Assembly (NCBI RefSeq): GCF_015547515.1
Contig: NZ_JADMVE010000007.1
Location: 178,374-242,373 of the forward strand
From: Eubacterium sp. 1001713B170207_170306_E7
GTDB taxonomy: Bacteria > Bacillota > Clostridia > Eubacteriales > Eubacteriaceae
Reading direction: 5' to 3'
Length of the DNA: 64,000 nt
The position numbers and the translations under genes are program-made. Below are positions 48,850 through 52,694 of the stretch, piece by piece. Position 1 is the stretch's first letter, and each line of letters opens with the position of its first letter. The notes below the pieces were generated by a model. It worked only from the letters and a program-made list of their open reading frames with translations, was not told the DNA's origin and did no database searches.

Positions 48850-48875
48850 TTCGCAGACTGTTGGTAGTCTGCGAA
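48850..48875 (+). repeat. Left copy of a palindromic hairpin pair (inverted repeat)
   Basis: Arms TTCGCAGACT (48850-48859) and AGTCTGCGAA (48866-48875) with loop GTTGGT. The whole 26 bases are the exact reverse complement of the copy at 49222-49247. Confidence 0.9.
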
Positions 48876-49221
48876 TAGGCTGTCTGAAACGCCGTGAACA
48901 GTGATGCCGATCTAGAATCTGACCATAGCCTTGACCAGATTAGGGAAGAAATATAGGAGAACTAAACCTTTTAAAATTCGCTTAAATCCGCGGTATATAA
49001 CAAAGAATTCTGACCATATTTTGACAAGATCGCCAGAAAGGAAAAAAACAAGATTATTTGGGTAGAGAAATTGATTATTGTTAAATTCCAGACATAAAAG
49101 TGATTTTAAATAAAATTATTTAATTTTTTTAAAAAAGTGGTGCATTTTTAATGAGGGAATGTTATAATAAATCACGCAGTTGAAAAACAGATTATTTTCT
49201 TAGGAAAAAAAATACAAAAAG
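48876..49221 (+). other. 346-base AT-rich segment between inverted hairpins, no gene
   Basis: No coding sequence is supported. It holds two imperfect direct repeats, CTGACCATA...TTGACCAGAT at 48919-48940 and CTGACCATA...TTGACAAGAT at 49010-49030, and a TATAAT at about 49163-49168 pointing to the TnpB-like gene, with a poor -35. Bounded on both sides by the palindromic hairpins, it could be an invertible segment or what is left of a transposon end. Confidence 0.55.
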
Positions 49222-49247
49222 TTCGCAGACTACCAACAGTCTGCGAA
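49222..49247 (+). repeat. Right copy of the palindromic hairpin, next to the ribosome binding site
   Basis: Arms TTCGCAGACT (49222-49231) and AGTCTGCGAA (49238-49247), loop ACCAAC. It ends four bases before the AGGTGAGG site of the TnpB-like gene, so the stem could affect its translation. Confidence 0.9.
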
Positions 49248-49264: not shown

Positions 49265-50569
49265 ATGAGTGCTGGATACGCCATTACGACGTACAAAATG
49301 CAGCTGTGCTATAAGCATCTTGACTGGTTTAAGCAAACCCAGTCTCTTTTTGACGCAGTACTGGCCTTTTATTACGGGCAGATTGATCAAGCCCCCCAGA
49401 CATTAAGTCTAACGAATCAAAATTTACTGCGCCATCTGGAGCTGAAAACCATCCCGCAGCGGGACGGCACTCAGCCGGAAAATCCGATTCCTTATGAAAA
49501 AGTACCGCTGTACTTCAGACGTTCTGCCATCAATGTGGCCATCAGTCTGTACAGAAGCTATGACAGCCGCCTCAAAGCTTGGAAAGAAAAGCAGAAAGAC
49601 CAAGTAGGAAAAGGAAAACCCAACCCACCAGGCAGGCTGCATGCATCTATGCTCTATTACAAAGGTATGTATAAGAACTTTGACGACAGAAGCATCATGC
49701 TTAAGCTCTATACGGGAAAAGCCTGGGTATGGGTCAAGCACCGTATTACCGGAAGATCTTTTCCGGAAAATACCGAGATTATGAGCCCGACTGTTGTTAT
49801 CAGAGGAAAAAAGGTGATGCTCCACGTTCCTGTAAAAGAAAAAATAGAGGACACAAGAACTGCGAAAGAACGTGTTAAACAGAGCGAAAGCTTTGTAGCC
49901 GTTGCTTTAAGCAACGCCGATACCCTGGCCGTTTGTACAACCATCAAAGCTGACGGTAGCGCTAGCCATCCAACCTTTATCAAAGGTGGAAAAGCACTGG
50001 CACACCGTAGGAAGCAGCTGATAGGGTATATCAAACGCGGGAAATCTAATCAAAATACCAAAGGCATTTTGCTCCAGAGTTCTCCATTGAGAGAGGATGG
50101 AGATAAGGCTGGAAGAACAAACACGAAATACTATCAAAAAATCACCTGTGTCACTGATCACTATGCCCATGAAGTTTCCAGAAAAATCGTGGACTACGCC
50201 AAAAGCCATAACGCCAAAATCATCGTCATGCCCGACTATGGCAATACCTTTGCCAAAGGCACACAGCATTATTTGAAAACCAGCGTCTATGACTTCATCG
50301 GCCGCCGGATCATCAACGATGTCAAGTACAAAGCCTGGCAGTGCGGTATCGTGGTACAGCAGAGCAACATGCGCGATAGCGCAAAACACTGCGCCAAATG
50401 CGGAGAAAACATTGCCAAGTACAATACTGAGTATCAAAACCCCAGCCAGAAGTTCTACGGCGGACAAAACTTTGTCTGCAAAAACGGCCATCAGGGCAAT
50501 ACCATATTAAATACCGCCAGAAATCTGGGAGAAAGTTTTTATCAGACCTTTTATGAAAAAGCGTCTTAA
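49265..50569 (+). CDS. TnpB-family (IS200/IS605 OrfB) protein, apparently nuclease-dead
   Basis: A 434-residue protein with the TnpB/Cas12-like layout: a helical N-terminal half, a RuvC-like C-terminal half and an inserted zinc ribbon. FIKGGKALAHRRKQL matches the conserved region after RuvC-I, and NTARNLG matches the NAAxN end of RuvC-III. All three catalytic acids look replaced: Ala214 in VAVALSNADTLAV for the GIDLG Asp, Pro323 in IIVMPDY for the IVIEDL Glu, and Asn412/Ile414 in GNTILNTARN for the DRD Asp. The zinc ribbon keeps C376xxC379 and C405xxxH409. The reading frame is intact and no TnpA transposase is adjacent. The ATG at 49265 is preferred over a GTG at 49253. This resembles the domesticated, RNA-guided repressors called TldR. 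Function here is unproven. Confidence 0.85.
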   Translation: MSAGYAITTYKMQLCYKHLDWFKQTQSLFDAVLAFYYGQIDQAPQTLSLTNQNLLRHLELKTIPQRDGTQPENPIPYEKVPLYFRRSAINVAISLYRSYDSRLKAWKEKQKDQVGKGKPNPPGRLHASMLYYKGMYKNFDDRSIMLKLYTGKAWVWVKHRITGRSFPENTEIMSPTVVIRGKKVMLHVPVKEKIEDTRTAKERVKQSESFVAVALSNADTLAVCTTIKADGSASHPTFIKGGKALAHRRKQLIGYIKRGKSNQNTKGILLQSSPLREDGDKAGRTNTKYYQKITCVTDHYAHEVSRKIVDYAKSHNAKIIVMPDYGNTFAKGTQHYLKTSVYDFIGRRIINDVKYKAWQCGIVVQQSNMRDSAKHCAKCGENIAKYNTEYQNPSQKFYGGQNFVCKNGHQGNTILNTARNLGESFYQTFYEKAS

Positions 50570-50620
50570 TTTTTTAATTATTATATTTAGATGAGTAATA
50601 AATAAAACGTAAAATCAAAG

Positions 50621-50695
50621 CCTTTGGTGAAAGCCGGAGGTGTGCTTTTCGCCTATAAGGCCAAAAGTACAGGCTTAGCACCGCCTGTTTTTATT
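50621..50695 (+). ncRNA. Run of hairpins after the TnpB-like gene, candidate guide-RNA scaffold
   Basis: Three hairpins follow within 75 bases: CTTT-GGTG-AAAG (50622-50633), CTTTT/AAAAG with GCC/GGC around TATAA (50645-50667), and ACAGGC/GCCTGT (50669-50688) followed by TTTTTATTT. The last is a normal terminator for the gene. The set also resembles the structured scaffold (omega RNA) that TnpB genes carry at and beyond their 3' end. Which of the two cannot be decided from sequence alone. Confidence 0.5.
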
Positions 50696-50836
50696 TCGCG
50701 TCGCATTGTGTTTGTTTTCTTACTTATTTATTAAAGAAAGCAGCCGCAATGCGATGAAAGTAGAGATTAAAGGATCCGTTGATGGTCATGAGTGCTACGA
50801 GTTTTAAATTAAATGATAAATCATAATGTAATGTAG
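50696..50836 (+). other. Spacer before glycan cluster with a long stem-loop
   Basis: TCGCATTG (50701-50708) pairs with CAATGCGA (50747-50754) around a loop that can itself pair weakly (TTTTCTT with AAAGAAA). No gene and no clear promoter were recognised between here and 50836. Confidence 0.5.
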
Positions 50837-50859
50837 GGAACGGTGCCCTCACCGTTCCG
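50834..50859 (+). repeat. Short palindromic intergenic repeat, copy 1
   Basis: TGTAGGGAACGGTG, then CCCT, then CACCGTTCC; stem 50837-50845 with 50850-50858. A second copy lies at 52027-52052. Confidence 0.75.
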
Positions 50860-50874
50860 AAAAAAGGAACTACC

Positions 50875-52011
50875 ATGGAAAAACAAGAAAAAATTTACCT
50901 TTCCTCGCCCCACATGGGCGGCGAAGAAATGAAATACATACAGGAAGCCTTTGACACCAACTGGATCGCCCCCCTGGGCAAAAATGTCAACCAGTTCGAA
51001 AAAGAAATGGCAGACTATGTGGGACTTAAAGCAGGAGCCGCCTTATCCGCCGGAACAGCCGCCCTGCATCTCGGCTTAAAAGCACTGGGGGTAGGGGAAG
51101 GCGACGTGGTCTTCTGTTCCAGCCTGACCTTTTCAGCCAGCGCCAACCCCATTATCTACCTGGGCGCAAAGCCCGTTTTCATCGACAGCGAGCCCGAGAC
51201 CTGGAACATGAGCCCGGTCGCTCTTAAAAAAGCCTATGAAAAATACCCCAATCCCAAAGCCGTGATCATTGTGGATTTATACGGACAGGCCGCCGATTAT
51301 GAAAAGCTGTCAGTCCTATGTAAAGCCCACCACACGCCAGTACTGGAAGACGCCGCCGAAGCCTTAGGTGCGACCTACCAGGGCCAGAAATGCGGGAACT
51401 TTGGCGATCTGTCCGTTCTATCCTTTAACGGCAACAAAATCATCACCACCTCCGGCGGGGGCATGCTCCTCGGTAATGACGAAGCCCTCATCCAGAAAGT
51501 CCGCTTCTGGTCCACCCAGTCCAGAGAGAATGAACGCCACTATGAGCACAAAGAATTAGGCTACAACTACCGCATGAGCAACATCGTTGCCGGTATCGGA
51601 AGAGGACAGTTAAAAGTCCTCGAAAAACGCGTTGCAAAGAAAAAGCAAATCTTTGAGACCTATCAAGAAGCCTTTAAACAAATCAGCGATATTGAAATGA
51701 TGCCCGTTTCCGATAAAGGCAAGCCCAATTACTGGCTCAGCTGCATGACCTTAAAAGAAGGCAGTACAGTTAAGCCGTTAGATATCATGCTGGCTCTGGA
51801 AAAAGAAAACATTGAATCACGGCCAGTCTGGAAACCCATGCACTTGCAACCTTACTTTAAAGCCTTTGATTTCTTCAGCCATTGCGACAAAGAGAATGAA
51901 CAGAGCATTGCAGAAGACATCTTTAACCGGGGCGTCTGCCTGCCGAGCGATACCAAAATGATCGAAGCAGACCAACAGCGCATTATCAAAATTGTCAAAA
52001 AATTGTTTTAG
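50875..52011 (+). CDS. DegT/DnrJ/EryC1/StrS-family sugar aminotransferase (PglE-like)
   Basis: A 378-residue PLP enzyme that adds an amino group to a nucleotide-linked keto sugar. The start IYLSSPHMGGEEMKYIQEAF and WIAPLG are typical of the bacillosamine-type (PglE) group. PLP Lys188 is in SFNGNKIITTSGGGM; DAAEALGATY holds the PLP ring-binding Asp. Likely substrate is the UDP-4-keto-6-deoxy sugar from the 4,6-dehydratase at 7894 (inference). First gene of the glycan assembly cluster, next to an initiating transferase and a PglD-like acetyltransferase, which supports that pathway. Confidence 0.92.
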   Translation: MEKQEKIYLSSPHMGGEEMKYIQEAFDTNWIAPLGKNVNQFEKEMADYVGLKAGAALSAGTAALHLGLKALGVGEGDVVFCSSLTFSASANPIIYLGAKPVFIDSEPETWNMSPVALKKAYEKYPNPKAVIIVDLYGQAADYEKLSVLCKAHHTPVLEDAAEALGATYQGQKCGNFGDLSVLSFNGNKIITTSGGGMLLGNDEALIQKVRFWSTQSRENERHYEHKELGYNYRMSNIVAGIGRGQLKVLEKRVAKKKQIFETYQEAFKQISDIEMMPVSDKGKPNYWLSCMTLKEGSTVKPLDIMLALEKENIESRPVWKPMHLQPYFKAFDFFSHCDKENEQSIAEDIFNRGVCLPSDTKMIEADQQRIIKIVKKLF

Positions 52012-52082: not shown

Positions 52083-52694
52083 ATGATCTATCAGAAATAC
52101 ATCAAACGTATACTCGACATCACCCTGTCCGGTGCGGCCATCATCGTGCTGTCACCCGTGATGGGCATCACCGCCATCCTTGTCAAAAAGAAACTGGGAA
52201 GCCCCGTGATCTTCAAACAGAAACGGCCGGGTAAGGACGAAAAAATCTTTACCATGTATAAATTCAGAACCATGACCGATGAGCGGGACGAAAAGGGAGC
52301 GTTATTACCCGACAGCGTCAGACTGACCACGTTTGGAAAGATGCTCAGGAGCACAAGCCTTGATGAGCTGCCAGAGCTTTTTAATATTTTAAAAGGGGAT
52401 ATGAGCATCATTGGCCCACGGCCCTTACTCGTGCAGTATCTTCCTTTATACAACGAAAGACAGAAAAGGCGGCATGAAGTAAGGCCCGGCCTTTCCGGAC
52501 TGGCCCAGGTCAATGGACGCAACGCTATCACCTGGGAAGAGAAATTTGATTACGATGTGGAGTACGTTGAAAAAGTCAGCTTGACACTCGATGTCCGCAT
52601 TGTTCTAAGAACTATCATCAAAGCCTTCAGACAGGAAGACATCAACGCAGGAAGCGAAGTGACGATGGAAGTATTTACAGGAGAACCATCATGA
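52083..52694 (+). CDS. Undecaprenyl-phosphate sugar phosphotransferase (PglC-like)
   Basis: A 203-residue bacterial sugar transferase (PF02397) with one N-terminal membrane-embedded helix (about 12-34), then the family core: FKQKRPGKDEKIFTMYKFRTM, RSTSLDELPELFNILKGDMSIIGPRPL and RHEVRPGLSGLAQVNGR. It loads the first sugar-1-phosphate onto undecaprenyl phosphate to start the repeat unit. The short form matches PglC, which uses UDP-diNAc-bacillosamine. Its stop overlaps the next ATG (ATGA). Confidence 0.94.
   Translation: MIYQKYIKRILDITLSGAAIIVLSPVMGITAILVKKKLGSPVIFKQKRPGKDEKIFTMYKFRTMTDERDEKGALLPDSVRLTTFGKMLRSTSLDELPELFNILKGDMSIIGPRPLLVQYLPLYNERQKRRHEVRPGLSGLAQVNGRNAITWEEKFDYDVEYVEKVSLTLDVRIVLRTIIKAFRQEDINAGSEVTMEVFTGEPS

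Follow-up and report, generated by a model that had tools for sequence, protein, structure and literature searches.

A TnpB-like protein that has lost the catalytic acids of its RuvC nuclease, a conserved structured RNA encoded behind it and a promoter segment in front of it that is predicted to invert form a module at the head of glycan clusters in Eubacterium. Judged from its sequence, the module is derived from TnpB, domesticated and phase-variable, and is likely a switch for the sugar coat that is made. The window (the whole stretch of 64,000 nucleotides of Eubacterium sp. 1001713B170207_170306_E7 analysed here) contains one of four full-length copies of the TnpB-like gene in this genome (G000, 4.27 Mb); the other three are 66–69% identical to it and each is found at a separate glycan locus. 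Four Eubacterium genomes harbor 17 such loci, with whole reading frames and the order of recombination-type sites, TnpB-like gene, RNA and sugar gene in all 17. A dead TnpB family with a covarying RNA occupies the place of a regulator at each of these loci in a genus of gut acetogens, and the same plan recurs in distant relatives.

The TnpB-like protein and its family

The gene (49265..50569, forward strand) encodes a nuclease-dead TnpB/Cas12f-like protein of 434 aa; its frame is unbroken, as stated in the initial annotation of this DNA. The start codon (ATG at 49265) is backed by a conserved N-terminus (MxAGYAITTYK) and by its constant spacing to the proximal recombination-type site, which begins 43 nt before it in 17/17 Eubacterium loci. 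Among the Pfam matches of the protein is PF07282 (E 7.9e-6, barely above the cut-off), among those of NCBIfam guided_TnpB (E 1e-16, under the cut-off of that model). PF27142, which is given by the protein database for family matches, was absent from the Pfam matches reported for the window protein. A structural comparison with TnpB had been proposed as a check, and at the level of the fold the AlphaFold2 model gave Cas12f chains as the top Foldseek matches (8dzj, E 1.1e-10, TM-score 0.37/0.38), with TnpB ranking lower and TM-scores below 0.41 among the matches listed; these scores and the modest quality of the model (mean pLDDT 61.9) do not support an overlay of single residues.

For the assignment of the RuvC residues, four TnpBs retaining the catalytic motifs (L151 to L154, three of them with a transposase gene annotated beside them) were used as reference. 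The Asp/Glu/Asp columns of this alignment correspond to Ala214, Pro323 and Ile414 of the window protein, the same replacements that had been proposed by eye. A profile match to AsCas12f concurs at Pro323 and Ile414, Ala214 being outside its coverage. A family alignment of 168 sequences was compiled from 167 retrieved proteins, drawn from the best 120 of 537 and the best 120 of 679 matches, and the window protein, which is identical to P0001. Among these matches listed, position 214 is Ala and position 323 Pro in 168/168 sequences, position 414 is Ala in 158, Val in seven and Ile in three, and an acid is found at any of the three positions in 0/168. C376, C379, C405 and H409 are unchanged in all of them, including the zinc-ribbon pair C376/C379 already described as kept. 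No member of the alignment has the Asp/Glu/Asp of an active TnpB, as in IS200/IS605. The loss of three acids throughout all members seen is beyond chance.

Members of this protein family were found in four of 40 genomes of the taxonomic family searched, corresponding to four of the five genomes of the genus examined. With the NCBIfam TnpB model, 28 matches were obtained in six genomes, every one from the dead TnpB-like family, and no TnpB above the cut-off was detected in these genomes. Since no active TnpB could be recognized in the six genomes, the family looks domesticated, a nuclease-dead TnpB-like protein rather than a mobile element. This had been suggested in the initial annotation and is supported also by the identity of only 66–69% among copies at separate glycan loci; many near-identical copies, which would have pointed to a mobile element, were not seen. 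A tnpA-like open reading frame was not recognized by eye among those at 44–55 kb of the window, in line with the earlier statement that no TnpA gene is adjacent, and near-identical mobile copies of IS200/IS605 type with a tnpA neighbour were not found at these loci. A repeat scan of 48.2–51.4 kb detected no CRISPR array.

Promoter segment, structured RNA and glycan genes

The dead protein beside a glycan cluster had been recognized in the initial annotation, in which neither the invertible segment with its promoter nor the RNA had been noticed. The segment predicted to invert (48876..49221, 346 bp) lies between two recombination-type sites and is oriented in the window with its promoter toward the gene on the forward strand (ON), according to the comparison of orthologues. 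The distal site (48850..48875) has the structure TTCGCAGACT-GTTGGT-AGTCTGCGAA, with dyad arms of 10 bp and a core of 6 bp, and 0 sites of this type are expected in shuffles of the window. The proximal site (49222..49247) is its exact reverse complement and begins 43 nt before the ATG, as does the second site at every one of the 17 Eubacterium loci. A likely extended -10 element, TGTTATAAT, is located at 49160..49168 on the forward strand of the segment; it was not reported by a consensus promoter scanner and is found at the equivalent place in 16/17 segments once these are oriented ON.

In the genome of the window, eight sites with up to three mismatches to TTCGCAGACTNNNNNNAGTCTGCGAA were found (two with the reversed control pattern), and these form four inverted pairs, each immediately before one of the four TnpB-like copies. 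Inverted pairs of 26-bp sites enclose 329–346 bp at 17/17 TnpB-like loci of the four Eubacterium genomes; the core of the sites varies among loci and is complementary within each pair. A relaxed pattern gave 41 sites with zero mismatches, 34 of which belong to TnpB-like loci, the other seven comprising two additional pairs, both in G025, and three unpaired sites. Relative to the window, the segment faces the gene at three of the 17 loci (the window, L010 and L046) and faces away at 14. At L010 (G000) and L048 (G025), with flanks of 96.9% and 91.1% identity, the inner 336 bp are 57% identical in direct and 100% identical in reversed comparison. Similarly, the segments of the window and L047 are 51% identical directly and 82% reversed (flanks 94.5% and 84.1%), those of L041 and L046 53% and 88% (flanks 96.0% and 74.9%). 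Equal orientation was found for L009 and L050 (flanks 94.9% and 85.0%) and for L008 and L049, where the left flank is just 56.5% identical. As judged from these alignments, the segment is present in both orientations at orthologous loci of different genomes, and the inverted pair encloses a predicted promoter, the arrangement by which phase-variable promoters are recognized.

TGACCA motifs recur within the segment, which also has an AT-rich stretch. The repeats are located upstream of the promoter (48920-49030 in the window) and have counterparts in 19 segments; in the Acetivibrio segments described below, a ACCAAAACTAGGGCA-like sequence directly adjoins the -35 in 7/8. Both are possibly regulator sites. 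Two more inverted pairs of the same type are present in G025 without a TnpB-like gene (L052:6916-7299 and L053:5979-6363), from which the switch type is, on the sequences compared, more widespread than the TnpB-like module. L052 also contains a 197-aa tyrosine-recombinase-like and a surface-protein-like open reading frame, both recognized by eye. Single sites without a partner occur in G023 and G024 (L055:6493-6518, L056:5569-5594 and L054:5599-5624), the one in L055 about 160 bp before an open reading frame of 1545 aa that resembles a surface adhesin by eye.

A recombinase was not recognized by eye beside the four TnpB-like loci of the window's genome. A 412-aa tyrosine recombinase is encoded between related inverted sites of its own (TTCGTGGAAT...; L051:3822-5385 and L057:5142-6706); the site pair is present in four of four Eubacterium genomes and the recombinase gene was confirmed in two. 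This enzyme is a candidate master or self-inverting recombinase, its tie to the promoters described here being a guess. Further integrase-family matches in the window's genome amount to 17. An integrase at L078, encoded among phage-like genes, was set aside.

At 17/17 Eubacterium loci, the interval from the TnpB-like gene to the first sugar gene contains a conserved element predicted to be a structured RNA. In the window it covers 50617..50809 (forward strand), comprises five stems (one of them long) and a pseudoknot, and ends in GTGCTACGAGTTTTAAAT. The 5' strand of the pseudoknot (UAGCAC, 50676..50681, forward strand) is located in the loop of stem 3, the 3' strand (GUGCUA, 50792..50797, forward strand) at the 3' end of the RNA. 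RNAalifold predicted 48 pairs, 17 of which are changed on both sides, and with the pseudoknot and a short hairpin added by hand the structure has 59 pairs. Of 1000 cells of this structure, 95.5% hold standard pairs and 18 pairs are changed on both sides; 0/500 shuffles scored as high and slid controls gave 38–47%, where the structure is derived from the same alignment on which it is scored and the shuffles do not preserve relatedness. The pseudoknot is nearly constant within Eubacterium. Across 29 loci, 12 of them distant, 182/186 of its pairs are standard with compensating changes (UAGCAC:GUGCUA, CAGUAUC:GAUACUG and CCAUAUC:GAUAUGG), the strands having first been placed by eye.

A covariance-model search of 11 genomes, with 150 candidates scored per genome, recovered the 17 elements as strong matches, together with a single degenerate copy (E 1.8e-10) from within the L045 cluster; all other matches were antisense to the same hairpins or near the threshold. 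No Rfam family came near its gathering score for four loci compared. The RNAs of Cas12f and TnpB are pseudoknotted scaffolds, like the RNA found here, which by its predicted fold looks like a TnpB-type scaffold. It is nearly alike at every locus of a genome. A terminator-like hairpin (50669-50688) is situated within the element. Stem 3 was considered as a terminator or attenuator and rejected: in the consensus fold its T-run takes part in pairing, the run is incomplete in 4/17 loci, and the region behind has no excess of terminators.

The RNA is followed by a weakly conserved spacer with an AT-rich start (50810..50874, forward strand), likely a 5' UTR, which would also be the place of a guide. 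Shortly before the first glycan gene, a hairpin of the type GGAACGGTG-CCCT-CACCGTTCC is found (50836-50858), the stem of which is altered and yet still pairing in many loci. The first glycan gene encodes a DegT/DnrJ/EryC1/StrS aminotransferase (50875..52011, forward strand; PF01041, 9.8e-100) and is followed by a gene for a bacterial sugar transferase (52083..52694, forward strand; PF02397, 1.2e-62). The glycan-cluster neighbourhood noticed in the window proved general: the first downstream open reading frame of at least 130 aa is a sugar-biosynthesis gene at 17/17 Eubacterium loci (a DegT aminotransferase at six, a sugar epimerase at six and a sugar transferase at five). In the 13.1 kb past the leader, 11 terminator-like sites were found on both strands together, compared to 10.8 expected.

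Distant relatives were searched with one genome per species and then in the whole genomes of G040 to G043. The first scan gave ten loci, six of which are outside Eubacterium at 35–39% identity; L087 almost duplicates L086. The whole-genome counts were eight for an Acetivibrio MAG (G041), three for a Lachnospiraceae MAG (G042), one for G040 and three, including a fragment, for G043. None of the six distant loci has an acid at the aligned RuvC positions. The frame of L090 stops before the last RuvC motif, and L089 is without part of the zinc region. One internal stop each was seen in the matches G043:C28 (L090/L094; L090:5983-7215) and G041:C14 (L091/L115), which look like broken or misassembled members.

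Inverted pairs of another sequence are present 5' of the gene at 8/8 Acetivibrio loci and also at L090 and L123, no site pair was found at L085, L086 and L121, and L122 is too near the contig end. The enclosed segments measure 311–438 bp in the Acetivibrio MAG and 234–245 bp in a Lachnospiraceae MAG. The Acetivibrio segments carry a promoter of the form TTGAC-16 to 18-TAYACT, directed toward the gene in two and away from it in six. The RNA model matches at 8/8 Acetivibrio loci (E at most 2e-7) and weakly at L121 (0.0073); at L085, L086 and L122 the RNA was recognized solely by alignment and pseudoknot, and after the gene in L090 and L123 the model gave no match. In the distant loci the 3' tail of the RNA is ATTAA or GTAAAA. 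Glycan genes are located behind six of the eight G041 loci, the exceptions being L116 and L118, whose contigs end too soon; Pfam supports one such gene each in L088, L117 and L119, and the remainder were recognized by eye. An open reading frame of about 310 aa is often the first behind these modules. Glycan genes were also found behind L085 (by Pfam), L121 and L122 (both by eye). At L086, glycan-type genes point toward the module from the opposite strand, so the RNA cannot be their leader there. A 192-aa tyrosine-recombinase-like open reading frame (L086:4522-5100, by eye) is located near the module in a Lachnospiraceae MAG without inverted sites.

Proposed mode of action

For the action of the module, a complex of the TnpB-like protein and its RNA on the leader of its own operon, without a distant guide, is tentatively preferred (probability about 0.42). 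The TnpB-like gene, the RNA and the glycan genes would form one operon, the promoter segment of which is inverted by a site-specific recombinase. Protein and RNA would be produced together when the promoter is ON, and the dead protein would bind the adjoining RNA as TnpB and Cas12f bind theirs. At the leader, the complex may cause antitermination or exert another positive effect, comparable to UpxY and independent of a distant guide, and would in this way set how much transcript reaches the sugar genes. Because the RNA is nearly alike at all loci of a genome, protein supplied by one ON locus could act at the leaders of sibling loci as well. A local positive role is made plausible by the parallel to Bacteroides, where an invertible promoter is combined with UpxY and UpxZ. 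The more specific form of this reading, in which the ribonucleoprotein reads its own leader RNA and licenses long glycan operons as a local switch set by DNA inversion, is held with still less assurance.

This leader-acting complex is favoured over a repressor of TldR type, which would be guided by the 3' end of the RNA to the promoters of competing glycan loci, or of surface genes of other kinds, with the effect that one locus in the ON state shuts down the rest. Guides are employed by the known TnpB, TldR and dead Cas12 relatives. The initial annotation had seen the pattern of TldR here; the dead RuvC triad agrees with it, as does a pseudoknotted RNA that lies 3' of the gene and ends sharply at its 3' side, and a convincing pair of guide and target was not found. 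Candidate guides were taken either behind the scaffold end or from TTTTAAAT onward and compared with loci retrieved from the same genome and with promoter segments, for two loci also genome-wide; the proposed search for guide matches yielded no convincing target in any of these. Words of at least 11 nt common to RNA and segments occurred in 36/146 comparisons versus 14 in plain base shuffles, which leans toward a guide, and six of the seven longest words (at least 12 nt) begin in the TTTTAAAT tail. Seed-anchored matches of at least 14 of 18 also exceed the shuffles (17 versus a mean of 9.9, a comparison without a computed probability). Against this, the mean seed-anchored match of 81 pairs, which include the own segment and two gene-less segments, was 11.69 versus 11.44 and is reached by 7.5% of shuffles that keep the composition, and the count of matches of at least 12 (56 versus 49.6) by 9% of them; the excess matches are AT-rich. 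The best match in the Acetivibrio MAG was equalled by 54/100 shuffles. Apart from themselves, the 19-nt candidate of the window has no genomic match with up to two mismatches (two with three), and the L086 candidate none under three mismatches genome-wide. A 17-nt sequence, TTAGATAAGTTATTATA, follows the RNA in three Acetivibrio loci and has a match of 16 of 17 just 5' of the -35 of a sibling segment. A fourth, exact copy at L127, where a possibly decayed RNA tail is present, precedes another aminotransferase-like gene (by eye), and TTAGATAAGTTATTATA was for this reason rejected as guide, a shared leader sequence being judged likelier. PMC13418256 adds three points in favour of such a repressor: 6-nt guides are enough for TldR action, hin genes and inverted DNA are reported upstream of csrA-tldR loci in gut Firmicutes, and the guides of these loci are predicted to cross-target homologous fliC genes. 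The scaffold-like RNA, the 6-nt guide action and the partial lean of the match tests make a guide-using repressor a serious rival, even if its correctness is doubtful.

Several properties of the sequence after the scaffold were counted against a distant guide. In the 16 nt behind the RNA, mean identity is 0.57 for pairs with the same downstream cassette (19 pairs), 0.39 for pairs in the same TnpB-like orthologue group (17 pairs) and 0.42 for the others (100 pairs), with both groupings assigned by the author; by this comparison the sequence appears to track the downstream cassette, not the orthologue group. The first 20 nt are 81% A+T in Eubacterium, the next gene begins 23 nt after the RNA at L045 and L047, and the candidate guides drift through insertions and deletions. 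Other findings stand against an action on the leader. The terminator-like hairpin lies inside the RNA and its full T-run is missing in four of the 17 loci, the site pair is lacking at L085, L086 and L121, and the RNA was not found by the model at L090 and L123. Terminators are not in excess in the 13.1 kb, which gives no sign that antitermination is needed, and this and the arrangement at L086 speak against simple antitermination. The probability given for the leader-acting complex was kept below one half because of these two points, the scaffold-like RNA, the 6-nt guides and a part of the guide tests.

Alternatively, the complex might act on the switch itself, aiding or blocking the recombinase at the inverted sites and biasing the segment to ON or OFF. 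The constant 43 nt between proximal site and gene would suit such a role, which is nevertheless improbable, as L052 and L053 have site pairs of this type but no such gene, and L085, L086 and L121 have the gene but no site pair. Similarly improbable is a targeting of the own locus, with the sequence after the scaffold as guide and the invariant TTTTAAAT as target-adjacent motif in a local feedback. This would explain an invariant tail followed by unconstrained, cassette-linked sequence; the tail may equally well be explained as part of the RNA scaffold and is ATTAA or GTAAAA in distant loci. Least probable is a relic that is carried along with the glycan clusters and has no regulatory role, to which the internal stops in G043 (C28) and G041 (C14) would fit: all 17 Eubacterium frames are whole, many positions are invariant and the RNA covaries.

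Relation to known systems and mobility

Dead TnpB regulators are already known, including one clade with upstream inversions (PMC13418256). The loci resemble those of TldR in the inactivated RuvC of a TnpB-like protein, the RNA beside the gene and the association with surface genes unrelated to transposons (PMC13418256). They differ in that glycan instead of flagellin genes are involved, no convincing pair of guide and target was found, and inspection by eye revealed no recombinase next to the four loci of G000. The inversions upstream of the csrA-tldR loci of Flavonifractor plautii are about 120 bp long according to the same source, compared to segments of 329–346 bp in Eubacterium, 311–438 bp in Acetivibrio and 234–245 bp in Lachnospiraceae.

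UpxY is a NusG-like antitermination factor; a NusG-like family was not among the Pfam and NCBIfam matches of the window protein, which comprise TnpB/Cas12f and weak unrelated families. Capsule loci of Bacteroides fragilis combine invertible promoters, antitermination by UpxY and inhibition across loci by UpxZ (PMC12632263), and agree with the loci described here in the invertible promoter, a regulator gene in first place, several loci per genome and glycan genes behind. The difference is that a protein of TnpB fold and a conserved RNA are found in the place of UpxY.

Nuclease-deactivated Cas12f may have a sigma factor as partner. By their names and titles, the PDB entries 9n9c and 9n9m represent a Cas12f fold without nuclease and bound to guide RNA. 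AsCas12f1, Cas12f and TnpB (PDB 8dzj, 7wju and 8iaz) are the best fold and profile matches of the window protein, from which they are distinguished by the catalytic acids that are absent here, and no CRISPR array accompanies the module in 48.2–51.4 kb.

In the open-access literature searched, no description was encountered of phase-variable glycan loci headed by a TnpB family and its conserved RNA, and there is a chance that the mechanism is of a new kind. The module joins two fields, that of dead relatives of CRISPR nucleases as guide-using repressors and that of phase-variable capsules controlled by promoter inversion and antitermination, and offers a ready test of guide-free action by TnpB descendants on their own leader RNA. 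If the action on the leader is correct, the module would correspond to UpxY/RfaH antitermination, carried out by a protein together with an RNA and derived from a transposon nuclease, and a guide-free leader switch would have been retained across Eubacterium, Acetivibrio and Lachnospiraceae.

In E. limosum SA11, four glycopolymer clusters beside transposase genes are described in PMC4791908, and the dead TnpB-like family may account for these 'transposase' genes. In G024, a relaxase-like gene (L045:1324-2688, by eye) is located immediately 5' of one module, which suggests that module and glycan cluster can travel together on a mobile element.
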